A stretch of 64,000 nt of DNA from a virus, in IMG/VR virus record IMGVR_UViG_3300020057_001228, positions 102,578 to 166,577 of that record. The stretch is one strand, 5' to 3'. A program made the translations under genes and the position numbers. The notes under the pieces are model-generated. The model did not search any database. It saw nothing but the letters and a program-made list of their open reading frames with translations, and was not told the origin of the DNA. Positions 42,675-61,855 of the stretch are shown piece after piece (positions within the stretch are counted from its first letter, which is position 1; each line of letters opens with the position of its first letter).

Positions 42675-43826
42675 TTAAGCTTTAGCAGCTTCAGCAGGCA
42701 GCGTGGTGCGGAACATATCCAGGTTACGAGTACGCCACAGTTTGAAATCTTCATTCTTGATGATCTCAATGTTGACGCCCTTCACCTTCCCAATGTCAGT
42801 GACAAACAGAGTAGCAAACTCTGTCTCAAACTTGTCGACATAACGGATGGCGTTACTCAAATACCCCTGGAACTGGAGAGCCTTCTCAGGCCTATTGTAG
42901 AACTGCACTAGCTTGGAGACGATACCAGAGATGGTTGCATAACGCAGACCAACATCCTCAGGCACCTCGACGTTTGTATAGCCACTAACGATGGCTTCGA
43001 TGTTCGGCAGCTTATCCGTGATAGCGATGTAGTTGATGAAGGTAGTAGCTGCAGCAAACCCGATAGCACCAGACAATGCGAAGTGGAGAGCCACATTCTT
43101 ATCAATGGGGATATGCGTCTTGTTGAGCTTACCCTTCAAGATACGATCAGCATACTCCCATGTACGAGGAGAGGGGAACGCAGGTTCATCAGAATCACTT
43201 CTGAAGTCGAACAGACCGGTCACACCCTTCCAGCTGACGAAACCAATGATCCTAGGATCAATCTTCGTGTTACCATCAGCACCAACCTGAAGTGCCCACT
43301 CTTTCCAGACATCAATGTCAGGCTGGATCTCGATGTGAACGAATCTATTGGCCAATGCTTTAGCCAGCTTGTATACAACGGAGCGATCACTCACCCGGTT
43401 ACCAGCAGCTAGAACACTCCAACCTGGAGGTAGAACAGCATCACCAACTCTACGGTCTAGCACCAGCTGATACGCAGAGGCTTGAACCATAGGAGGAGCA
43501 GAGCTCAGCTCATCGAGTAGCAGGATGCCACGCTTGCCGTGAATCTCCTCAGAGGGGAAGAAGCTAGGGATAGCCCAGTGAGCCCTCTTCAACTCACGGC
43601 CGTTCACCATGTCGTTGAGGAAGTACGGTAGACCACGAATGTCTGACGGGTCCATCTGAGATAGACGTACGTCGATCAGAGCCATCTCGTTCTTGTCCGC
43701 TAGCTCTTTGATCTTGGCGCTCTTGCCAACTCCAGGAGGGCCCCAGATGAACATAGGAGTACCCAGCTCAGCTTCAATGATTTCACCAGCTACGTTGAGA
43801 TTGGTAGAGATGTTTTCGTTACTCAT
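42675..43826 (-). CDS. MoxR-type AAA+ ATPase, copy 1
   Basis: 383 residues. Walker A FIWGPPGVGKSAK near the start, Walker B GILLLDELSSAPP, sensor 1 AAGNRVSDRS, and arginine-rich later segments, in MoxR/RavA order. MoxR ATPases work as chaperone-like remodellers with a vWA partner, here the next gene upstream (8 bases away). Probably hexameric and cytoplasmic. See copy 2 at 49444-50598. Confidence 0.85.
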   Translation of the reverse strand: MSNENISTNLNVAGEIIEAELGTPMFIWGPPGVGKSAKIKELADKNEMALIDVRLSQMDPSDIRGLPYFLNDMVNGRELKRAHWAIPSFFPSEEIHGKRGILLLDELSSAPPMVQASAYQLVLDRRVGDAVLPPGWSVLAAGNRVSDRSVVYKLAKALANRFVHIEIQPDIDVWKEWALQVGADGNTKIDPRIIGFVSWKGVTGLFDFRSDSDEPAFPSPRTWEYADRILKGKLNKTHIPIDKNVALHFALSGAIGFAAATTFINYIAITDKLPNIEAIVSGYTNVEVPEDVGLRYATISGIVSKLVQFYNRPEKALQFQGYLSNAIRYVDKFETEFATLFVTDIGKVKGVNIEIIKNEDFKLWRTRNLDMFRTTLPAEAAKA

Positions 43827-43834
43827 GTTGGTCC

Positions 43835-45028
43835 TTAGCCTGTTATTCCAGTGAGTGGTAATACGGTGCCGAACTTTGGTATGTCCGTTCTATTGCTCAA
43901 CACCCAAATTACTTCATAGTCTGGAGCTGGTGGCATCTCTTCGTAGAAGTCACCATCAGAGGCTATGATCAAGGCATCAATTGGCTCATGAACATTCTGT
44001 TCAATCCAATCAAACACAGGACTAACGTGGGTACCACCACGGTCTTCAAATCCATACCCCTCTGCAGGGATATTATCTCCAGTGATAAACTTCTTGTGAC
44101 TGTGCAAGTGGGAAGAGAATGCAAGCACATCAATCTCAAAGTTTCTAAACGATCCCATGATGTCATTCAAGACGCCTACGAAGTACTGAAGCTCTTTACT
44201 GGACACTGATCCAGAGGAGTCAATAGCTAAGACGATCCTAACCATACTTCCTGTATAGCCGTACATGTAGATCCCATGGGCGAATAGCTTCTTGTGTGGA
44301 GGTACGATGCAGTGGTCATCCTTGATAACAGATTTGATCGTCGCGTCCAGCAGTGAGTAGAAGTCAATCTTAGGGCTGAGATAGCTATCAATAACCTCTG
44401 CAACCCCATTAGGAAGCTTACCAGCAGCACGTGCCTTCTGGGCAGCCTGGATAGACCTATTGACCCAGTCACGCTTGTCACAGGCATCTATAGGAGTACC
44501 GTCAAGCATGTCATGGTCGTCAAGGGTCTTCATATCCTTGAGCTTCTCTTTGAGATCTGGGTCGTTCATGATGTAATCATAAACTTTCTCAGAGTTCCAA
44601 CCCTTAAACTTGTAGGGTTCGTACAGACAGCCTTTGATGAACTCAAACTTAGCATCAACCAGGATACTATTGATCACGTAGTCTGTTGCTAGATTCCAGG
44701 CGTGTTTGTTGCGATCTGAAACACGATCATTGTTATGAACATGTTTAAAGACGACGTGCATGACTTCGTGGGCCATGGCAAACATGAGCTCAGCATCAGA
44801 TAAACCATCTACGAATTCTTTGTTGAAGTAGATGTTCCTGCCATCGGTGGCCAAGGTGGACATCAGCTTTGTCTCAACAAGTCGAAGATACATCACCAAG
44901 CTCCCAAAGAAGGGGTGATCTAATAGCAGGTTTACCCTAGCTTTGCTTACACGTTTAGCTGTGTCCAAAAATCCTCCGATGTGAACACCTTTACCAGATC
45001 GATACCATCTATGATAATGATGGAACAT
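43835..45028 (-). CDS. Metallopeptidase-like plus vWA domain protein, copy 1
   Basis: 397 residues. The N-terminal domain has HEVMH near residue 86 (zinc protease-like, DUF2201 type), then an alpha-rich region; the C-terminal vWA has DSSGSVS (metal site) near 268 and later SDGDFY. vWA proteins pair with MoxR ATPases. The first ATG lacks a ribosome site; a TTG at 44968 has GGAGG four bases upstream and may be the true start (removing 20 residues). Confidence 0.82.
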   Translation of the reverse strand: MFHHYHRWYRSGKGVHIGGFLDTAKRVSKARVNLLLDHPFFGSLVMYLRLVETKLMSTLATDGRNIYFNKEFVDGLSDAELMFAMAHEVMHVVFKHVHNNDRVSDRNKHAWNLATDYVINSILVDAKFEFIKGCLYEPYKFKGWNSEKVYDYIMNDPDLKEKLKDMKTLDDHDMLDGTPIDACDKRDWVNRSIQAAQKARAAGKLPNGVAEVIDSYLSPKIDFYSLLDATIKSVIKDDHCIVPPHKKLFAHGIYMYGYTGSMVRIVLAIDSSGSVSSKELQYFVGVLNDIMGSFRNFEIDVLAFSSHLHSHKKFITGDNIPAEGYGFEDRGGTHVSPVFDWIEQNVHEPIDALIIASDGDFYEEMPPAPDYEVIWVLSNRTDIPKFGTVLPLTGITG

Positions 45029-49443: not shown

Positions 49444-50598
49444 CTATTCCATTTCAGCCTTCACCTTTGTAAGCTTCTCTTTGTACAACCCAAGCAGCCG
49501 TGAACTACTCAGTACGAGTGGTTGGAATCGTTTACCAAAGTCTGTACGATAGTCTACCATGCTCACTACAAGCTTAGACCCCATCTCTGGTGGAACTAGG
49601 CAGAGGAAGGCAGACACGCTGGAGAACTGATCCTTACTGATGGACTTCATGTTCTTCAGGTAGAGGTACAGTCTGTGAACCGTGATGGCTAACAGAGAGT
49701 TCATACCCTGAGAAACCCAGGAGTCGATCTTATCCTCTACATCCTCACCAGCCAAGATAACTTCAGGGCTGATAGGCTTCTCAGTGGATTTCCATGCATC
49801 AAAGGTAGCAAGGAACTCAACACCAAAGGTACATGTAGCGATAAGACTGAGTAGCGTTCTATCGTCTTTGATGTACGGATAGATACGAGCGAAGATCATA
49901 CGCATACGAGGATTGCTGTCAGGCTTTGTGATGGAGACTCTTTCAGTCTTCAGTCCGTCCCTGTTAGCCAACCAGAAGTTCTTGAGATCTTCATGAACGT
50001 CCTGGATCTCCATCTGTTCTAGCTCTACATCGATAGCCACGTTGTATGGCACGCTAAGGAACCTAGAGAGCTGAGCTCTATCTAGTTGGGAGACGTTGTA
50101 CTCCACTGTGTCAGGGTTGTCTGTGATCACAATAGCCCATGTGTTGGGAATCGATACACCAGCAAACGTACGTTCCAGAGAGAACTGTTGTAAGGCCTGT
50201 TGGATGTGTGGGAGAGCCCTAGACATGTCATCGATGTTCAGGATACCTGTAGTGCCTTCTTTAGGCCAATCCTTTGGCACGGCTACCACAGTCTCTTTAC
50301 CACCATCTGCAGAGTCAGATACCGTACTGAGTCCAAAGATCTCAGCAACGTCAGTCTTCTGTGTATCCAACTTCAGGTAGCCGATACCAGCCTTACGGCA
50401 GTAGTCTTCTACAATAGCTGTCTTACCCACACCCGGAGCACCAACTAAACGTATCACTACGTGTCTAGGTCTCAGGTTAGGATTACCTGACGCATCCAAT
50501 GTAGCATGGTAAGCAGCATTAATCAGCCTCATATAGGGGTTGATACTAAACTTACTGAGGCCTTCGCTACATACCTGTGTTGGTGTTTTATCTGACAC
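49444..50598 (-). CDS. MoxR-type AAA+ ATPase, copy 2
   Basis: 384 residues, GTG start with GAGG upstream. Walker A LVGAPGVGKTAI near 50-61, Walker B GILNIDDMSRA (the common Asp-Glu is Asp-Asp here), sensor-like VITDNPDTV. Pairs with the vWA gene four bases upstream. It differs clearly from copy 1, so the two modules are old paralogues or separate gains. Confidence 0.82.
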   Translation of the reverse strand: MSDKTPTQVCSEGLSKFSINPYMRLINAAYHATLDASGNPNLRPRHVVIRLVGAPGVGKTAIVEDYCRKAGIGYLKLDTQKTDVAEIFGLSTVSDSADGGKETVVAVPKDWPKEGTTGILNIDDMSRALPHIQQALQQFSLERTFAGVSIPNTWAIVITDNPDTVEYNVSQLDRAQLSRFLSVPYNVAIDVELEQMEIQDVHEDLKNFWLANRDGLKTERVSITKPDSNPRMRMIFARIYPYIKDDRTLLSLIATCTFGVEFLATFDAWKSTEKPISPEVILAGEDVEDKIDSWVSQGMNSLLAITVHRLYLYLKNMKSISKDQFSSVSAFLCLVPPEMGSKLVVSMVDYRTDFGKRFQPLVLSSSRLLGLYKEKLTKVKAEME

Positions 50599-50602
50599 TG
50601 TA

Positions 50603-52057
50603 CTACCTCTGTACTTTTAGTCTTACTACTTCACCGCAGTGCTCTGGAAATACTTCGTCAGTGGTGCATACCCACATGGTCCGAGCAAAGATCAACTCGG
50701 GTGGTGGTTTCTGTGCTGCACCATCTGTCAACACAATGATACCTGTATAGTTCTTACGCTTCCAGATACCACGTACGTGTTTAAGAGCCTCGATAAAGCT
50801 AGTGCCGCCTCTACCCTTGATCGCGTAGCCTGCTGACCTTCTGAAGGGGCTTATATCCTGTACAGAGAAGTCAAACTGTATGACGTCGATCTGTACTCCA
50901 TTCCTATAAGCACCCTCAACCTCAGACAGGAAAGAGGTTAACTCTTTGTTGCTCACAGAGCTAGAGGTATCAAGCAGGAATGCTATATAGGTTCCAGGAA
51001 GAGGTTTGATCTTCGGGGGCTGTCCATACTTGTTCAGCTGACCTGACGTAGCCCTAAGCTGAATCCCACCACAGTATCCTAAGAACCTTCTGATGTAATG
51101 CTGCCATGGTAGCTTAGACGCTTTACCAGCTTCGATGATCTGCTGAATCTTACCAGCTACGTCACCACAGTACTTCTGGAACATCTCAGGGTCTGTCATC
51201 TCTTTAGCAGAGGACATCTCCTGTGAGAGCTTGAACTGAACAGCTTCTTTCATGTTGGGATCTTCGACAGCTGTCTCCCAGTAGTCATGGTTAGAAGCTT
51301 CCTTCATCTGGGCTGTTATATCAGCAGCAGAGGAACCTTCGTCTTCACCTTCAGATGGCTCATCGCCCTCTTCTTCAGAGGATGTACCTTCATCATCGGA
51401 CTCAGACTCTTCATCACTCTCACCAGAGCTATCACTCTCACCAGAGCTATCACTCTCACCAGAGCTATCACTCTCACCAGATCCACCCATATCAGATCCA
51501 GAGCCACTAGACTCGCCTTCACCTTCACCCTCTTCTACAACCTCAGGCAGTAGGCTATATACCCACTTAACCCATTCGTAGTAAGACAGGCTGGTAGCAA
51601 ACCCTTTAGGCATAGAGTTAGTTATGTTCTGTGTAGGAGGAACAAACTTCTGCATAGCATCAAGGAAACGCTTAGGTGTAATGGAGTTAGGAAGCAGCAA
51701 AGCTCCTTGAGCCTCCATCATGACGTTGATAGCCATATCACAGGCTACACTGTAGAGAGGGTCGCCAAACTCAGGCTGCATAGGATGTTCGTAGATCCAG
51801 TGTAGAACCTCGTGCTCCAGTAGGAACAGTCGGCTCTTCAAGGTAATGGTATCCAGTGCCTCTTCATTAATTAGAAGCACTGAGGAGCCTTCTAGCCCCT
51901 CGTAAGTGATACCAAAGTACGCGACATCCTTACTAGGTTTGTACCTCATCTGAAGAACCCAAGCATAATAGAAAGGGTTCCTGGTCAGAAGAGCAATTAC
52001 CGTTTCGCTATAAGCTTGGGTCAAACCTTTCCCCCTTGTCGTCCAGAAGAGTGGCAT
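50603..52057 (-). CDS. Metallopeptidase-like plus vWA protein, copy 2, with Ser/Glu-rich linker
   Basis: 484 residues. HEVLH at 82-86 in the N-terminal zinc-protease-like domain, and Asp107 in SVACDMAIN; a long acidic linker (about 175-245) with a repeated SDSSGE unit; a helical segment; a vWA domain with DTSSSVS near 362 and VLTDGAAQK. AGGAAG precedes the ATG. The linker probably lets the two domains move apart. Partner of MoxR copy 2. Confidence 0.8.
   Translation of the reverse strand: MPLFWTTRGKGLTQAYSETVIALLTRNPFYYAWVLQMRYKPSKDVAYFGITYEGLEGSSVLLINEEALDTITLKSRLFLLEHEVLHWIYEHPMQPEFGDPLYSVACDMAINVMMEAQGALLLPNSITPKRFLDAMQKFVPPTQNITNSMPKGFATSLSYYEWVKWVYSLLPEVVEEGEGEGESSGSGSDMGGSGESDSSGESDSSGESDSSGESDEESESDDEGTSSEEEGDEPSEGEDEGSSAADITAQMKEASNHDYWETAVEDPNMKEAVQFKLSQEMSSAKEMTDPEMFQKYCGDVAGKIQQIIEAGKASKLPWQHYIRRFLGYCGGIQLRATSGQLNKYGQPPKIKPLPGTYIAFLLDTSSSVSNKELTSFLSEVEGAYRNGVQIDVIQFDFSVQDISPFRRSAGYAIKGRGGTSFIEALKHVRGIWKRKNYTGIIVLTDGAAQKPPPELIFARTMWVCTTDEVFPEHCGEVVRLKVQR
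51413..51481 (-). repeat. 18-bp tandem repeat (3.8 copies) encoding SDSSGE
   Basis: Three complete and one partial copy of the 18-base unit lie in the acidic linker of the vWA protein. They are contiguous, so this is not a CRISPR array. Confidence 0.9.
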
Positions 52058-54320: not shown

Positions 54321-54565
54321 ATTGTCAGGACTACGTTGAGTGCTTTGTACGCTTCCAACAAGTTTAATCCTGCTGTTGTACCTTTGAGCACCTTGGAAAT
54401 GTCGTGCCTAGCTTTGATAACAAGATCTAGTTCTTCTTGCTCCATAGCTTCCTGGTCTACACAAGTTTGTAGTAGCTGAGCCACAACACTAAAGTCGTGG
54501 TCAGCTTGCAATAGGGCCAACCGCATTGCTGCAGCTTCTACCTCTAGCTCTGAGTAACTACTCAT
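54317..54565 (-). CDS. Hypothetical helical protein (82 aa)
   Basis: All-helical, acidic start, leucine-rich; no ribosome site seen. Overlaps the 105-aa gene upstream by 8 bases. Confidence 0.5.
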   Translation of the reverse strand: MSSYSELEVEAAAMRLALLQADHDFSVVAQLLQTCVDQEAMEQEELDLVIKARHDISKVLKGTTAGLNLLEAYKALNVVLTI

Positions 54566-54875
54566 CGTTGAACATAGCGCGTATCGTCTCTTCTATTTCT
54601 ACATGATCAGCAAAGCCGCGAGGTGCTGGTGTAACTGGGGCTACTACGATATGAGGGAAACGGTCTCTAAAGAATGGATTCTGAGGACGGTTTCTACCTA
54701 CCCCATTATCCAAATCCCGTTGCCTAGCATCTCGTATCTGCTGCATAACGTCAGCCTCAGTAGCATGGGGACCAAGTTCCATACGGTATCTACGGCCATC
54801 AACAGCTTCCGCTGTGACTATAGCGCCATAGGGCCCGAAGTCCCTATTGATAGACACGATACCTAGGTCGTTCAT
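54558..54875 (-). CDS. Hypothetical protein (105 aa)
   Basis: Short beta segments (GIVSINRDFGPYGAIVTAEAV), then a charged helical part and a Pro-rich end. Lies directly behind the E2-like gene (18 bases), so it may belong to the conjugation operon. Unrecognised. Confidence 0.5.
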   Translation of the reverse strand: MNDLGIVSINRDFGPYGAIVTAEAVDGRRYRMELGPHATEADVMQQIRDARQRDLDNGVGRNRPQNPFFRDRFPHIVVAPVTPAPRGFADHVEIEETIRAMFNDE

Positions 54876-54892: not shown

Positions 54893-57139
54893 CTACCAGG
54901 TCCCTGTAGTTGCGACGGTTGTTCCCCAGTTCCCGGTACCTGTGATGGTTATCGTCGATCCTGACGTTATTGTCGACGTCGACGGCTGGTACTGGACTTT
55001 TGGGACAGCGGATACTCCACCAACAGCCTTGAGCAGAGCGATCTGCTCTGTGATATAGCTAGCTTCGTCGCTGTCACGCTTGAAGATATCCTTGGTAGCA
55101 ACGTTGTAGTACTCACAGAAAGCTACAACATCGTCACCAGAGAACTCACGAGCTAGGATGGGTCTAAGCTGACCTAGTGGTGGACGGCAGCTGGCTGCGA
55201 TCGCACGACTACTCTTCTTAAACATGTACTTAGAAGCACGTGTGATAGCCTTCTGTAGCTTCTCATGAAGTACTGCTCCCTCAGGAACAAACGTCACGGC
55301 AAACTTGAAGTCATCAGGCGTAGCTGTTGGGTACACGGTAATCCTAGACCCTTGAGGGATAGGCATACCACGCCATTCCATAGGACTGGCAACTGCCATC
55401 TCTAGACTCAATGCAGCTAGCTCAGGGTTATCTGGGTTGGCTGTACGAGCGTTCTCATAGAGACCTGCAAAGGTACCAGAGATATGATTACGGATATCAT
55501 CTTCGTAGATATCATCCCTATTGACGTGATACAGAGCTGCAAGCAGGTTCTCACCACGACCTCCAATGTAGGCAGGCCTAGTGGTCAAGACGGTTCTACA
55601 CACCCCAGGAACACGGAACGAAGTCGTAGCCCCTGTGTAGACTGTATCAGGACCCTCAGTAGACATAGTGAAGTAATCAGCTCCACCATTCTCATGAGCT
55701 GCTGGTGACAACAGACCAGAGAACGCAGCACGAGCAACTTGTCTACCCCAGTTATTGATTGCTAGAACTGCCTGCGGGACAACGTCTCCCAGAACCTCAT
55801 TGATAAGCTTGTTTACCGTATTGCCATTCTTATCAAGAGTCTTATGTACAGAGAGTTGCAGCAGTAGAGTATGTACAGGCATGAGGATCTGCTCCCCACC
55901 ACCGTTGCGTCCTGTGTACTGACCAAGGAAGGCATCGATCTCAGGGATGTACCTAGTTATCCGACTCAACGAGTTGATATAGTTAGAGCCAATTTGCATA
56001 GCCTTCTCTGTACCAACGTAGTGTTGAAGAACGATAGCCCTAAGGTTATCCATCTCCTTCTTGTGAACCTGGATAGCTTTGTCTAGAGCTATGTCTAACT
56101 TCGGATTGGTAGTACGGACATAGGTGACAGGAGCCTTCCGTGTGGTCAGTCTAGAACGGATCTCTGAGTAATGCTGTTGCGCTACTCTAGCCCAGTTCAC
56201 ACTGTTGTTAGCAATCGCAGCTACCTTATAGCACTCTGCAGTCACAAAGATCGACTGAGGATTCACTGGGATCTCTTGATCACCAACTACTGCTACATAG
56301 CCCTCTGGTGTGGACTTACAAGGGTAGGTAAAGAACTTGTTGCCCTCAGATAGGACCAGCACTTTATTATGCTCACCAGTAATGGCGTCTACGTACTTGA
56401 AGCTATCTTTAGCCATCGCGCGATACGGTACACCATTCAGCAGGAGCACAGACTGGTCTCTAACCACCTGATCATTACCAGTACGAGAGTTCTCACCATT
56501 CATAAGAGCGGTGAGGTCTCTGCCAGATACAGGAACAGGATAGTCCGTAACGTCTGCCAAGCTTAGCTTGGACCATGCTCTGAACATACCACGTCTAGGC
56601 TCCTGACTCTGTGCTGTAGAGAACTTGGGGTTCTTCGCTAGGATCTCAGGCTTGATGAAGCACAGGTTACCTTCCAAGTGATGGTTGAATGGAGAGCTAA
56701 GGAAGTACGTGATAGCCTGCATCAGGCTCGTACTCTGTCCGTGCCCACCAAAACAGATCTTACCGTTAGACCAAACGTTACCAACCTGGAATGCATTCAG
56801 TCTAGAGTACGTCACATCGAGTGAAGATCTAGTAAAGACACGTAGCTTGTCGTAAGCTGTTCGACCTGGAGTCATATCCCATAGGAACACAAGATTCGGA
56901 ACAGGGACGGTGAGTCGCTCATCCAGAAAGATAACTTCTCTATTGTGAGCTGGAAGTTCAAAGGCGAACGTAGTGTTCAAGCCTCTAACCATCTTCAACC
57001 CAGAGAATTCCAACATAGTTGCCATTGCTGGGATAGTAACCCGCTGTGGTTTCACTACGTTTCCATTGGGGAGTACATTCTCTCCAACTTCAACTAGGAC
57101 ACAGGGGGTACCCCCGATGACTGCTTCGATTGTATCCAT
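54893..57139 (-). CDS. Large protein with PRTRC-B-like E2 (ubiquitin-conjugating-type) domain
   Basis: 748 residues. Around 80-155: PNLVFLWDMTPGRTAYDK, then GNVWSNGKICFGG with Cys129, then FLSSPFNHH. The order (N.V...GkiC.G, then FF.S.F.H) is the E2-like signature of PRTRC protein B; the Cys would carry the thioester. The remaining 550 residues are unrecognised, with a Ser/Thr/Gly-rich tail. Conjugates or transfers the Ub-like protein to targets, if the system is active. Near ThiF and JAMM genes; weak ribosome site. Confidence 0.6.
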   Translation of the reverse strand: MDTIEAVIGGTPCVLVEVGENVLPNGNVVKPQRVTIPAMATMLEFSGLKMVRGLNTTFAFELPAHNREVIFLDERLTVPVPNLVFLWDMTPGRTAYDKLRVFTRSSLDVTYSRLNAFQVGNVWSNGKICFGGHGQSTSLMQAITYFLSSPFNHHLEGNLCFIKPEILAKNPKFSTAQSQEPRRGMFRAWSKLSLADVTDYPVPVSGRDLTALMNGENSRTGNDQVVRDQSVLLLNGVPYRAMAKDSFKYVDAITGEHNKVLVLSEGNKFFTYPCKSTPEGYVAVVGDQEIPVNPQSIFVTAECYKVAAIANNSVNWARVAQQHYSEIRSRLTTRKAPVTYVRTTNPKLDIALDKAIQVHKKEMDNLRAIVLQHYVGTEKAMQIGSNYINSLSRITRYIPEIDAFLGQYTGRNGGGEQILMPVHTLLLQLSVHKTLDKNGNTVNKLINEVLGDVVPQAVLAINNWGRQVARAAFSGLLSPAAHENGGADYFTMSTEGPDTVYTGATTSFRVPGVCRTVLTTRPAYIGGRGENLLAALYHVNRDDIYEDDIRNHISGTFAGLYENARTANPDNPELAALSLEMAVASPMEWRGMPIPQGSRITVYPTATPDDFKFAVTFVPEGAVLHEKLQKAITRASKYMFKKSSRAIAASCRPPLGQLRPILAREFSGDDVVAFCEYYNVATKDIFKRDSDEASYITEQIALLKAVGGVSAVPKVQYQPSTSTITSGSTITITGTGNWGTTVATTGTW

Positions 57140-57153
57140 TGTTCCGTCCCGCT

Positions 57154-57188
57154 AAAAAGGGGGTCAGGAACACCACGTTCCCAACCCC
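57154..57188 (-). terminator. Rho-independent terminator before the E2-like gene
   Basis: Minus strand 12-bp stem GGGGTTGGGAAC / GTTCCTGACCCC (two G-U pairs), short loop, then TTTTT. It divides the operon between the beta-grasp candidate and the E2-like gene; readthrough or antitermination may tune E2-like expression. Confidence 0.8.
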
Positions 57189-57196
57189 AAGGTCTA

Positions 57197-57853
57197 CTAC
57201 CTGTCCCGAACTGAAATGGTCACACGGATAGCGTCACGCTCAACACCCAGCGCATTGGCTAGAGTTGCGATGATACTGTCACGTGCGGCATCTGTAGCCT
57301 GACGAGGCGTGGCCGGTGCTGTAGCTGTAGCTACGGGCACTACCACTGCTGCACGCTGGGCAGCCTTAGCATCGAGTGTCTGCTTTAGCAGGACAGCTGC
57401 GATGAGCTTCGGGCTCCCAACGTCTGCATACTCCAACCTTTCGGTTGCTGACACAACGACACTATGCTCAGCATGAGTCTCGTCGTTGGAGAAGTGGAAG
57501 ATACCTGGCTCGTCTGCGTCAGCATCAACGCTCCAGCCGGCATCCGCCAATTCCCCTAGCAGCCGGCGTGCAGAGGATGTGTCAAAAGACTGCTTGGTTC
57601 CAGTAGTGGCTACCAGAGTCACATAGACTTCGGTAGTACCAGCGGGAAGCTGGGCCACGATGGAATCAGCCGAGGTATCCAGACCACCGAGGTTCTGGTT
57701 GTTGACGTTCACGGTAACCCCTGTGAGCTGGTTCTCACCGATGAGGCCACGGGACATCGCGTTCTCAAACAGCTGACGAAGGGTCCGACCCTGCCAGTTA
57801 CGAGTGATAGCGGTCTCATTGTTGACCGTTAGGTTGAATACTGTTTCAGCCAT
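57197..57853 (-). CDS. Candidate ubiquitin-like (beta-grasp) protein (218 aa)
   Basis: The N-terminal 85 residues read like a beta-grasp domain: strand, LRQLFENAMSRG helix, strands, VNVNNQNLGGLDTSADSIVAQLP, and a last strand VYVTLV. MoaD/ThiS-like rhythm; an internal Gly-Gly at about 55-57. The C-terminal 130 residues are a separate Ala-rich domain with no terminal Gly-Gly, so conjugation by the classic tail would need cleavage. Ub-like identity is inferred from operon context and pattern, not proven. AAGGAG precedes the ATG. Confidence 0.4.
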   Translation of the reverse strand: MAETVFNLTVNNETAITRNWQGRTLRQLFENAMSRGLIGENQLTGVTVNVNNQNLGGLDTSADSIVAQLPAGTTEVYVTLVATTGTKQSFDTSSARRLLGELADAGWSVDADADEPGIFHFSNDETHAEHSVVVSATERLEYADVGSPKLIAAVLLKQTLDAKAAQRAAVVVPVATATAPATPRQATDAARDSIIATLANALGVERDAIRVTISVRDR

Positions 57854-57925
57854 TTAGCTGTCGTCTCCTTGGAGCGATGGTGTGTTGTAATTCTAGAAAA
57901 TACGCTCTAACTAGGCGACGTAGCC

Positions 57926-58702
57926 TTAACTAACTACAGGTTCAGTTACCTGGACAGTAGGTTCCACCACAGCAGCAATCGCTACGGGTGTCAGGGTAGC
58001 CTTCTTGTTCTCAAGCAACTTCGCTAACGTTGCCACAGGGCCAATAGCGTTCTGCTTGAAGTTGACTGAGTCGTAGAACACATCAGCTGGAACTGCCGTA
58101 CCCTTGTACAGAGCAGAAACCAACTGAAGGATCACCGTTGCTCCAGTCACATTCGTACTGATGAGCTGAGGGCTACCTTCATCTGCTGTAGCCATGCATG
58201 ACGGTTCATTGGGATGCCTATCTTGTGGATTGGCAATCTCAGGGTGGAACTGTGTGATGGGAGGCAGCAGATCCTGACCTTCAAGCCGAGCATACAGAAG
58301 CACATTGCCGTTGCTGAGATTGCCTGTCCCACAGATGTAGGCGACGTTCTCAAGGGTTCCGCAGTGATCCTGAATGAGCTTATTGGTCTTATGGTTATCA
58401 ACCGCACTGATGACTAGGGATTCATCAGGAATAGCGGTGACGTTATCCACGTCTAGGAAGGTAGCGATCGTGAACACATCGATCGGAGAGCCCTTTAGCT
58501 GGGCCTGCAATGCTTTTGCTTTGGGTAGTGTGATGTCATTGGTACCAAAACTCTGCCTAGCCAGGTTAGAGCGCTCAACCGTGTCGCCATCAATGATGGT
58601 CAACGCTGGCTTTGCCTCCAAGGAGCTAAGGAATCTATGTAGGGGGCCGAAGAGATTACTCCCGACTCCACCTAATCCAATAAGAATCACATTGCTGAAC
58701 AT
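57926..58702 (-). CDS. E1-like ThiF-family activating enzyme (PRTRC ThiF-like)
   Basis: 258 residues. Rossmann ATP site IGLGGVGSN (9-16), Asp38/Asp40, then ERSNLARQ (43-50), Lys61, VDNHKTN near 102, all in the E1/MoaB/ThiF order. Candidate catalytic Cys169 in EPSCMATADEGSP, matching the SC motif of PRTRC ThiF. Adenylates the C-terminus of a Ub-like protein. Its ATG directly follows the stop of the 642-aa gene (TAAATG). C-terminal tail of about 40 is Ala/Val-rich. Confidence 0.8.
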   Translation of the reverse strand: MFSNVILIGLGGVGSNLFGPLHRFLSSLEAKPALTIIDGDTVERSNLARQSFGTNDITLPKAKALQAQLKGSPIDVFTIATFLDVDNVTAIPDESLVISAVDNHKTNKLIQDHCGTLENVAYICGTGNLSNGNVLLYARLEGQDLLPPITQFHPEIANPQDRHPNEPSCMATADEGSPQLISTNVTGATVILQLVSALYKGTAVPADVFYDSVNFKQNAIGPVATLAKLLENKKATLTPVAIAAVVEPTVQVTEPVVS

Positions 58703-60631
58703 TTAGCCAAGTACCTTCTTGCGCGCATGTGTGAGAACATCGATTTGTTCTTGCAGATAAGTGCCGATGTCAGCACCTCTGTTGAACTCTATACCCATCA
58801 AAGTCAAAGCCCTGACTAGCTGCTGACCCTTCATGAACATATCAAACACACCACGCACAGAGCTAAGAATACGAATACTCTTTACTGCGCCTGCATGTGT
58901 GACGTTCTTCTTGATCAGGTCAACGTCGTTGTTCAGATAGCTACCAATAGATAGCACACCACCAACAGTTGCGAGGTCTGTTGTCTCTCTATACATATAG
59001 AAAGATTCAGCCGAACCTCTAACACCAGAGGGCAATTGGATAGTCAGAGAACCAGACACGAGGTCAACCTTTATAGGTTCACTACGACGTCTAGTAATAC
59101 TGAAGACCAAGTCCTCGTAGACACCAGTTGCTTCGTCCTTCATAGGGAACGCCCAGTAGCGTGAGATAGACTGTGTGTCTACCACGTTACCAAAGGGCCC
59201 TACTCTGTTCTGGTTGGTGGTCTGCTGACGAAGTCTATCTGCTCTAGAGTCCAGATCGAGTGCGTCAAACTGTGCTTGATACTGGGCCAACTCCATAATC
59301 ACCCCGTCAGGCATAACTATGTCGTTAAACTCCAAGTAGCACTTTGGCATGAACATCAGACTATGCTGCAGTCTATGCTCTAACTGATCCGGAGCACTAG
59401 AACACAGATAACCATCATCATAGGCTTTCAGTACAACAGCGTTGTACCAACCACCATGACCCTGTTTGACTCTGATCCTAGATCCAGTGACCAAGTCTTC
59501 AGCTGTAGCACCCTTGATCACCATGAACCTACGATTAGCAGGTAGATCAGCTGCATTACTGTACAACTGCAATGGGTGCAAGTAGAAAGGTAGAGTGTTA
59601 CCAAGCATCTCAAACTTCAAGAAGCCATGCTCTCTACCCTTGTACACGATCTTGTTAGGATACAGGCCACCGTATGCATTAGTATTGATAACCAATGCAT
59701 GTTCGTCTATCACTAGAGTGGCAGCATACTCCTCAGCCTTCTCGATAAGCTTAGCCGAAGCTTGCTTCCGTAAAGGCTCACCTTGGGTACCAAAGGTATG
59801 TCGGCCAGCAATCTGTGCAATGACAGCCTCGTACTGCCTTAGAACACCACCAGCGTGGGATATGTTGTCATACAGAGAGATAACCTTATCGGCCTCTGTA
59901 TTTGCATTCATATACCCACCCTTAGGGTAGTCCTTGTATTCATCGGAGCAGTGAAGTTCTGTGCACCAACCAACCCTAGGTGGAGTGGACATCAAGATAT
60001 CCATACGCCTAGTCTTCGGTCTGTAGATCCAGAGCTTACCATCGATCTTTGAAACAGGGATGATCACGTCGTTGTGGAACACAAGAACGTTGGTATCCGG
60101 TCTGGCCTCAAAGTTGATAACCCTAGACTTCACTACACCTAAGAACCAGGAGTCCTCTAGCTTGATATGGTTACTCCCATCACTGAATCTAGATCCACCC
60201 TTCAAGATGGATACTAGTTCAGCGTCTGAGTGACAACCAACAGCTGTGTAGCCCGTGGTAGCAAGCTGGGCACTTACCTTGAGTTCAAGTTTACCCTGAG
60301 TCTCAAAGTACATCTGGTTAGTGCCAGACTTGATCACGCCATACTTACCCTCAGCATCCTTCAGGAGAAACTGGAAGTATAGAACATCCATAGCTACAAA
60401 GAACGCAACGTGTACAGCTGGGGATTTGTTCAGACGAACAACAGCTACCGTTGGGTGAGGCAGACTAACCAAAGTGGCGTCTATACCCCCCAGGCCCACC
60501 TCTATAGATGTCCTGAGGGAGTCAGACCTAGGAGCAAAATAAGAACCACTGTCACCAGGGGCCTTTGCTACCGGTAGAAGATCAATCTCACTCTGGAGTT
60601 TGAGTTCTACTTGTTGACCAATCTGGCCCAT
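58703..60631 (-). CDS. Unknown large protein of the conjugation operon (642 aa)
   Basis: CGGAGAG precedes the ATG. No recognised motif. Predicted beta-rich with mixed segments; residues about 200-260 include WIYRPKTRRMDILMSTPPRVG. Located between the JAMM and E1 genes with a 25-base overlap to the first, so probably part of the same pathway: substrate, adaptor or target-binding subunit. Cannot be classified by eye. Confidence 0.65.
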   Translation of the reverse strand: MGQIGQQVELKLQSEIDLLPVAKAPGDSGSYFAPRSDSLRTSIEVGLGGIDATLVSLPHPTVAVVRLNKSPAVHVAFFVAMDVLYFQFLLKDAEGKYGVIKSGTNQMYFETQGKLELKVSAQLATTGYTAVGCHSDAELVSILKGGSRFSDGSNHIKLEDSWFLGVVKSRVINFEARPDTNVLVFHNDVIIPVSKIDGKLWIYRPKTRRMDILMSTPPRVGWCTELHCSDEYKDYPKGGYMNANTEADKVISLYDNISHAGGVLRQYEAVIAQIAGRHTFGTQGEPLRKQASAKLIEKAEEYAATLVIDEHALVINTNAYGGLYPNKIVYKGREHGFLKFEMLGNTLPFYLHPLQLYSNAADLPANRRFMVIKGATAEDLVTGSRIRVKQGHGGWYNAVVLKAYDDGYLCSSAPDQLEHRLQHSLMFMPKCYLEFNDIVMPDGVIMELAQYQAQFDALDLDSRADRLRQQTTNQNRVGPFGNVVDTQSISRYWAFPMKDEATGVYEDLVFSITRRRSEPIKVDLVSGSLTIQLPSGVRGSAESFYMYRETTDLATVGGVLSIGSYLNNDVDLIKKNVTHAGAVKSIRILSSVRGVFDMFMKGQQLVRALTLMGIEFNRGADIGTYLQEQIDVLTHARKKVLG

Positions 60632-61698
60632 GTGCTCTCCGTTGCTGGTTCAGTGATACCAGCATCTTGCTGCTCTAGTTCAGCAAGCAAAGCGATATCA
60701 CGAGGGTCGATAGGCAGATCATCAAGAGGAAGATCTTCACCTTCATAGAGATGGGGATATTGTCTTCTGAGGCGAGCGTCGATTGCGTCTTCTTCCCCTG
60801 GGGACAGAGGAGCCCTGGCGCCCGCCCATGCTCGGTCCCAGTCCGCATCCTCCGACGCTTGACTTCCCCGGTGGGAACCATAGTCAGCAGCAGCAGGAGC
60901 TCCCTTAGGAAGCCACGCACTGTTAGGTCCACCTACAGGAGCAGGAGCCCCCTTAGTGACCGTAGCAGCCTTGTAGGTATCCTTGACGACCTGATCCAGA
61001 ACTGACTGGTGAGGCTTGTAGTACTCGATAGGTTCGATGTCAAACACCTGGTGTGCAGGAAGCACGAACCGTGTATGACGAACTACCAATGAGCATGCTA
61101 AAGCAGGAATGGGATCCAAGACCTTACCAAAGGTGACGTGGAATCCATTGATGGGTAGCTCATTGATGTTGTCACCACCGGACCAGAAGGCACCCATCAT
61201 ACCGTGACTGTGTGCTGAACCAGCTAGGACCCACCCCTTGGTGTTGTCGATGTCTGCTTCTTCACCTGTCTCAAGGTTGAGGATACGTCCGACACTAAGG
61301 TCATAGCTAGCCTGTCCACCAGAACACTTCTGACTCGGGATGACTGTCTGCCATTCTGTTGTGTTCTTGTTGTAGTAGAACAGGACGACTGCTTCAGTCT
61401 TCTGCTGTTCATAGATGTACTTGAAGAGATCACGAGTAGCTTCGAACAGGCGCCCTGGAATCTTTAGGGCTGACTGTTGAACGACAGGCGTGATTTCTCT
61501 GGTCTTACGAGTGTCTTTGACAAGGGCCGTACCAAAGATGGTAGGAACCTTAATGAATCGTCCACCGTCTCCGATAACCGTATCGAAGTCTTCGAGCTTC
61601 TCGATCTGCTCAAGCTCCCATGCGATCTCCTGGTTAGGATCGACAGCGGGCGGAAGTGGTGCCAATTCACCGGACTGCCGCATTCCTCTCTTAGACAT
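60607..61698 (-). CDS. JAMM/MPN isopeptidase-like protein (PRTRC-A-like)
   Basis: 363 residues from ATG 61698, with GGAGG four bases before it; the longer frame is rejected. The JAMM signature is complete: Glu102, HSH at 163-165, seven residues, Ser173, two residues, Asp176 (AHSHGMMGAFWSGGDN). Zinc-dependent removal or processing of Ub-like proteins is expected. First gene of the operon; long acidic Pro/Ala-rich tail. Confidence 0.85.
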   Translation of the reverse strand: MSKRGMRQSGELAPLPPAVDPNQEIAWELEQIEKLEDFDTVIGDGGRFIKVPTIFGTALVKDTRKTREITPVVQQSALKIPGRLFEATRDLFKYIYEQQKTEAVVLFYYNKNTTEWQTVIPSQKCSGGQASYDLSVGRILNLETGEEADIDNTKGWVLAGSAHSHGMMGAFWSGGDNINELPINGFHVTFGKVLDPIPALACSLVVRHTRFVLPAHQVFDIEPIEYYKPHQSVLDQVVKDTYKAATVTKGAPAPVGGPNSAWLPKGAPAAADYGSHRGSQASEDADWDRAWAGARAPLSPGEEDAIDARLRRQYPHLYEGEDLPLDDLPIDPRDIALLAELEQQDAGITEPATESTWARLVNK

Positions 61699-61722: not shown

Positions 61723-61822
61723 TGGGTTGCTAAAACAGCTAAGCTGTATCAAAGATATACATAGGCTTGGAGGCCGCTATAGAAACGTTGAGAGGTAGGG
61801 AAGGCCAAAGCCCTCACCTACC
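61723..61822 (-). promoter_or_regulatory. Leader and hairpin before the conjugation operon
   Basis: About 100 bases between the 109-aa gene and the JAMM gene. At 61794-61822 an imperfect hairpin (GGTAGG ... CCTACC, inner GGC/GCC) probably ends the upstream unit; no T tract. Near 61740 the palindrome CAGCT-T-AGCTG may be an operator. A sigma70 promoter is not clear. Confidence 0.4.
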
Positions 61823-61855
61823 CTCAACCTGGTGGCGATCAGAAGTCTTGAAAGA

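Follow-up and report, generated by a model that had tools for sequence, protein, structure and literature searches.

A rearranged phage-borne gene cassette related to operon type 6d and PRTRC systems, with a probable function in reversible ubiquitin-like conjugation

Introduction

Conjugation of ubiquitin-like (Ubl) proteins in bacteria has mainly been studied as an anti-phage defence. Five neighbouring genes of a large phage raise the question whether phages themselves carry a module for attaching and removing such modifiers. If a self-contained module of this kind recurs across dozens of lineages of large phages, this chemistry would operate on the side of the phage as well. The genes had been described, in a reading made from the sequence alone, as an operon encoding a JAMM peptidase, a 642-aa protein, an E1-like enzyme, a beta-grasp candidate, and a 748-aa protein with an E2-like signature. 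According to our analysis they probably constitute, at a probability of roughly 0.7, a phage-borne cassette for reversible Ub-like conjugation that combines E1, E2 family D, and JAMM proteins in the manner of operon type 6d, close to PRTRC systems and in rearranged form. This kind of cassette is already known in bacteria, and the window holds a rearranged phage form of it, for which no first report is claimed.

Carrier phage and arrangement of the locus

The record IMGVR_UViG_3300020057_001228 comprises 166,577 bases, and the window, i.e. the whole stretch of 64,000 nt analyzed here, is its end. By its predicted proteins the record is a contractile-tailed phage. It encodes a portal, a major head protein, and a tail sheath as well as a family A DNA polymerase, primase, helicases, and ribonucleotide reductase. 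The head protein is nearest to those of the Ma-LMM01 group of Microcystis phages and of Microcoleus phage My-WqHQDG (29-32% identity), the DNA polymerase is nearest to that of My-WqHQDG (28% identity), and about 26 ORFs match Ma-LMM01 or My-WqHQDG, the terminase at 36% included. The phage is probably distantly related to phages of freshwater cyanobacteria, and we infer a cyanobacterial host from this distant kinship alone. None of the cassette genes was found in Ma-LMM01 or in the partial record of My-WqHQDG. Hence, they are an accessory gene set of this lineage.

All five ORFs reported between 54893 and 61698 were confirmed on the minus strand, in the order JAB-P642-E1-P218-E2. The features of the locus are as follows.

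60607..61698, minus strand: JAMM/JAB metallopeptidase, 363 aa, PRTRC-A-like, candidate deconjugase and/or Ubl-maturing protease; ATG start with GGAGG upstream
58703..60631, minus strand: P642, a 642-aa orphan between the JAMM and E1 genes; overlaps the JAMM gene end by 25 nt
57926..58702, minus strand: E1-like adenylyltransferase, 258 aa, PRTRC-ThiF-like, candidate catalytic Cys169; family matches and conserved residues
57197..57853, minus strand: P218, putative Ub-like N-terminal domain, alpha-beta-beta-beta-alpha domain, and C-terminal tail; profiles and model
57584..57853, minus strand: putative Ub-like domain of P218, residues 1-90; alignment, model, and Foldseek
54893..57139, minus strand: E2-like protein, 748 aa; Prok-E2_D / PRTRC-B matches
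57160..57188, minus strand: terminator-like hairpin between the P218 and E2 genes; 13 pairs, then CTTTTTAG
about 61786..61828, minus strand: strong hairpin upstream of the JAMM gene, possible transcription-unit boundary; -32.3 kcal/mol, z -4.2
54558..54875, minus strand: 105-aa orphan gene, 17 nt downstream of the E2 gene; ORF without family match

As judged from the GGAGG upstream of it, the ATG at 61698 is the probable start of the JAMM gene; the longest ORF begins with a TTG at 61752. Although the genes are neighbours with a common orientation, the hairpins at 57188-57160 and about 61828-61786 make the proposed single five-gene operon doubtful. Since one hairpin lies between the P218 and E2 genes and the other on the 5' side of the JAMM gene, expression of E2 may be separate from, or weaker than, that of the other cassette genes. 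The former hairpin, with -20.6 kcal/mol and z -0.77, is an ordinary fold compared with shuffles, and the latter has a weak T tract. The 105-aa orphan gene may share a transcript with the E2 gene.

Outside the cassette, two modules at window positions 42675-45028 and 49444-52057 are each composed of a VWA-like/putative metallopeptidase (DUF2201) protein and a neighbouring 383-384-aa protein. The protein encoded at 42675-43826 gave a weak MoxR-like AAA match, and the second module follows downstream of the E2 gene after about 2.8 kb.

The E1, E2-like, and JAMM proteins

The E1-like protein matched PF00899 ThiF at 8e-16 and TIGR03736 PRTRC_ThiF at 4e-17, the latter with 62.4 bits against an NCBI cut-off of 144.75, and it matched ThiF/MoeB models as well. 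Its residues include GxGGxG at 9-14, D38, D40, R49, K61, and D102. The ATP site noted earlier proved intact, with G9, G11, D38, D40, N46, and K61 invariant where aligned. Cys169 lies in a conserved [GS]C motif, a pattern found in most of 57 E1 sequences; an equivalent Cys occupies the exact profile column in 39 and the expected region in 53 of them. In the E1 tree, the window fell with moderate support (92/89) into a clade formed by the viral loci L018-L037 and three MAG loci.

The family D/PRTRC-B domain of the 748-aa protein extends approximately from residue 20 to 254. It matched PF14460 Prok-E2_D at 3.5e-5 and 24.0 bits, just below the 25-bit cut-off, and PRTRC_B at 6e-4 and 19.3 bits against an NCBI cut-off of 131.45. 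These matches, together with the conservation of Cys129 in 55 of 55 sequences, agree with the E2-like PRTRC-B signature that had been placed around this residue. Asn121 is likewise kept in all 55, and SPFNHHL at 149-155 provides His153/154 downstream of Cys129, most relatives having Asp at 154. The rest of the protein (about residues 255-748) is an orphan C-terminal extension of about 490 aa, for which scans with the whole 748-aa protein found no relatives in the libraries, phage records, cassette loci, or IMG/VR. Against PDB sequences, the E2 profile gave weak unrelated matches only.

As a single sequence, the JAMM protein matched PRTRC_A with an E-value of 0.03 and 13.8 bits (NCBI cut-off 101.8) and Prok-JAB with an E-value of 0.05. 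The value of 2e-55 was obtained with a profile trained on relatives, the window sequence included. The E/HxH/S/D set is complete, as had been stated, and in the 363-aa numbering consists of E102, H163, H165, S173, and D176, which are nearly invariant across relatives. Thus, homology above chance level and conserved residues support the earlier interpretation as a PRTRC-like set of E1, E2, and JAMM with a Ub-like candidate.

No relative of P642 was found in Pfam, NCBIfam, PHROGs, PADLOC, PDB sequences, IMG/VR, phage records, or the cassette loci. Its position and an alignment by eye of RFSDGSNHIKLE with FLSSPFNHHLE had brought up P642 as a second E2; with filters off, it gave no match to the E2 profile.

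Related cassettes in other phages and genomes

In IMG/VR and phage records, from which entries very near the window may be missing, the window proteins had no close relatives. Similarity of E1 led to cassettes in Bacillus phage vB_BauM_KLEB27-3 (gp194-199, one of them annotated with a PRTRC_A domain), Salmonella phage Arash (gp246-251), Vibrio phage D69, Acinetobacter phage ME3, and plasmids. Scanning IMG/VR for a JAMM motif yielded 53 contigs, every one with E1 and E2 genes beside the JAMM gene, and grouping at 90% JAMM identity resulted in 37 non-redundant viral lineages. Their gene orders were E2-JAB-E1 (27), JAB-E2-E1 (9), and E2-JAB-E2-E1 (1), and the largest gap between core genes was typically tens of bases. 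In the single lineage of the last type, two E2-like genes flank the JAMM gene (L028:3171-6898). A Ubl gene was recognised in 31 of the 37 lineages, upstream of the enzymes where found. A motif scan of bacterial and archaeal genomes returned only 9 loci, with a different peptide pattern that makes the counts not directly comparable with those from IMG/VR.

The profiles were iterated on these loci, and their E-values therefore describe a trained family; the independent evidence is the co-occurrence of three unrelated families, E1, E2, and JAMM. Judged from sequence, E1, E2, and JAMM proteins with conserved catalytic residues are encoded together in the window as in 37 other viral lineages. One JAMM motif alone recovered this core module from 37 lineages, which makes it a widespread feature of large phages, and tandem poly-Ubl genes frequently accompany it. 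Hence, being phage-borne is the general case, and the peculiarity of the window lies in the rearranged variant. In the literature searched, whose coverage leaves out most subscription papers and all preprints, no description of phage E1/E2/JAB cassettes was found, and a survey of jumbo phages (PMC7824862) contains no mention of ThiF, JAB, E2-like proteins, or PRTRC.

Two types of Ubl occur in the cassettes. The first is PRTRC-C-like, and two examples score 94 and 103 bits against PF14454 Prok_Ub, for which the cut-off is 25. The second (clade B), found in the JAB-E2-E1 lineages and their kin, weakly matches PF02597 ThiS. Tandem Ubl copies number six in L053, five in L059, four in KLEB27-3 and L067, three in D69, and two in several others, with K-G at nearly every unit end, and parallel eukaryotic polyubiquitin genes. 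Single genes encoding 3-6 Ub-like domains head to tail, with Lys-Gly closing each unit, are located at L053:1764-2843, L059:6156-7262, L004:4700-5449, L067:4742-5494, and L015:2301-3092.

The ThiS match of the clade B Ubls and the ThiF/MoeB matches of E1 would also suit a sulfur-carrier or small-molecule pathway, in which E1, together with a ThiS/MoaD-like protein, would serve to supply sulfur or to activate a peptide and the JAMM enzyme would merely mature the carrier. We consider such a pathway improbable. E1 is best described by PRTRC_ThiF, all 37 lineages have an adjacent E2-like gene whose Cys is invariant, tandem Ubls fit a consumed modifier better than a carrier, and genes for thiamine or molybdopterin were not recognised next to the window cassette.

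The putative Ub-like domain of P218

As to the proposal that P218 is a beta-grasp protein, weak sequence similarity and a low-confidence model suggest a Ub-like fold for about residues 1-88 only. The C-terminal glycine to be expected there is absent. Two Ubl profiles each placed P218 first among the ORFs of the phage, with scores reached by 20 and 11 of 5000 shuffles, respectively. With the final profiles, no ORF of the record ranked above it as another Ubl. Direct searches revealed no relatives of P218 in phage records or cassette loci. Residues 1-88 align with the second Ubl type at 20-26% identity to its nearer members; a Lys column is invariant in this alignment, in which K87-Q88 falls on the K-G terminus. 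The expected processing site thus would be Lys87-Gln88 (Gln codon CAG), with the domain ending TGTK-Q. Among 68 other distinct Ubl domains, 66 end in Lys-Gly and 2 in Lys-Ala (L017 and L021). As P218 has Lys-Gln at this site and continues for a further 130 residues, a conventional glycine-ended modifier is not evident.

The single-sequence structure model of P218 was poor at the N-terminus and gave no usable match in a Foldseek-type fold search. With 15 relatives aligned, the N-terminus was modelled at pLDDT 59 and the Foldseek list contained mostly Ub-like folds, the top TM-scores among the matches listed being those of 8tyx, a bacterial Ubl-deubiquitinase complex (TM 0.60/0.67), and 8tyz, a bacterial E1-E2-Ubl complex. 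Because relatives were in its alignment, this model counts as support only. We regard the assignment of the first 88 or so residues as the Ub-like domain of the cassette as moderately supported. It is followed by an alpha-beta-beta-beta-alpha domain at about residues 92-166 and the C-terminal tail. In the single-sequence model, the alpha-beta-beta-beta-alpha part at about residues 90-165 (57359-57586) is the most confident one and is faintly HicA-like (Foldseek 6g26, not significant).

The K87-Q88 end, the unique gene order, and the orphan insertions would be expected of a phage system that was once active and has since decayed or been repurposed, so that its modifier has lost its Gly and its proteins form a non-covalent complex. 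Yet the catalytic residues of E1, E2, and JAMM are all intact, the reading frames are open, and the Lys-Ala domains of L017 and L021 indicate that the terminal residue can vary, so that we judge decay to be unlikely.

Comparison with known systems

Operon type 6d of bacteria, for which Ub-like conjugation and removal were proposed (Iyer, Burroughs and Aravind 2006, Genome Biol 7:R60, PMC1779556), unites a JAB protein, a stand-alone E1, a stand-alone E2-like protein with a Cys and a downstream His, and a Ub-like protein, as does the window with P218 as the candidate for the last of these. In contrast to type 6d, the window has a rearranged order, the 490-aa extension of E2, the additional 642-aa orphan, and a putative Ubl domain that is fused to other sequence and lacks the terminal Gly. 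From PRTRC systems (TIGR03735-03737), the ThiF, PRTRC-B, and PRTRC-A models were the best NCBI models for E1, E2, and JAMM, respectively, but all three scores were far below the curated cut-offs. The window proteins are therefore relatives of PRTRC proteins rather than members. Among the eight window genes scanned, none matched the ParB-like, PRTRC-C, -E, or -F genes, and the PRTRC order ParB-E-C-F-B-A-ThiF, as in Cupriavidus taiwanensis plasmid I (L014), is not kept.

KLEB27-3, Arash, D69, ME3, and the 37 IMG/VR lineages share the same E1, E2, and JAMM families with the window. Its order, however, was present in none of the 37 lineages, where, apart from the second E2 in one of them, the core reads E2-JAB-E1 or JAB-E2-E1. 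Gene order, E2 extension, and 642-aa protein match no relative examined, which bears out the remark that the arrangement departs from the standard cassette. The window cassette is a rearranged variant with its own gene order, two orphan protein regions, and Lys-Gln in place of Lys-Gly.

Bil, the CBASS E1-E2 (Cap2), and Bub systems also employ bacterial E1, E2, Ubl, and JAMM chemistry, and the P218 model appears structurally near the Ubls of 8tyx and 8tyz. The window differs from them in being phage-encoded, in its separate family D E2, and in sharing weak similarity in the E1 domain only. PADLOC, with a 2023 library possibly without Bil models, reported generic E1-E2 models through the ThiF domain only and no match for JAMM, P642, P218, or E2. 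In phage lambda, the tail proteins I and K likewise combine a Ub-like domain and a JAB peptidase (PMC1779556), but they belong to other protein families, act in tail assembly, and are accompanied by neither E1 nor E2.

Proposed mechanism and biological role

At the family level, reversible Ub-like conjugation is very likely the chemistry of these proteins, as deduced from their homology. The JAMM protease would cut Ubl precursors, often tandem ones, after Lys-Gly. E1 would then adenylate the Lys-Gly end and hand the Ubl to the E2 cysteine, E2 would join it to a target, and the JAMM enzyme would also take it off again. Target recognition or a scaffold role would here most likely fall to the long extension of E2 and to P642. 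Because of the Lys-Gln at its processing site, P218 may be used after atypical processing or act as a non-covalent adaptor, or a further modifier may have gone unrecognised. Several observations count against the cassette reading, namely the missing terminal Gly and low-confidence model of P218, the E2 match just under the Pfam cut-off, the lack of relatives for P642 and the E2 extension, and the terminator-like hairpin separating E2 from the other genes.

Most likely, phage or host proteins are modified during infection. Modification of virion proteins and counteraction of Bil had both been suggested, and nothing in the sequence points specifically to either. Since the cassette belongs to the replication-side arm and is well removed from the structural block, we slightly prefer takeover or counter-defence over virion assembly or modification in this phage.

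Counter-defence could also operate by deconjugation only, with the JAMM enzyme stripping a host Bil-type or other Ubl from phage proteins and with E1, E2, and the Ubl-like protein serving as decoys. A JAMM enzyme is present, many such enzymes occur in the viral-like Borgs (PMC12660748), and hosts conjugate Ubls onto phage structural proteins according to Hor et al. 2024, as cited there. We nevertheless think this improbable, since the E1 and E2 active sites, unneeded in decoys, are kept across distant lineages, the whole gene set travels together, and PADLOC gives generic E1 matches only.

Extending the conjugation reading, large tailed phages may commonly encode complete autonomous Ubl conjugation systems with JAMM-cut tandem modifiers that are used in infection, the window being a divergent branch with a non-glycine modifier end and an E2 with its own target-recognition region. 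We put this forward tentatively, at somewhat less than even odds. KLEB27-3, Arash, D69, and ME3 offer cultivable models for what PRTRC-like systems do.

In Arash (L016 / L080), the cassette is located at the end of the structural block beside tail/baseplate genes, and the depositors annotated E1 and E2 as 'structural protein'; for that phage, this would speak for a role in the virion. Some of these neighbouring gene families recur in about 15 viral lineages. In ME3, the JAMM gene is split into two halves with a tRNA gene and small ORFs between them (L017:2622-5732), which suggests an intron or insertion. The annotated E1 of D69 (L015:5870-6103) has no N-terminal nucleotide-binding part, and a tblastn match extends upstream of its start; the gene may be broken or misannotated. 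Large extra regions are found in the E1 genes at L046:10662-13139 (825 aa) and L064:8162-11302 (1046 aa).
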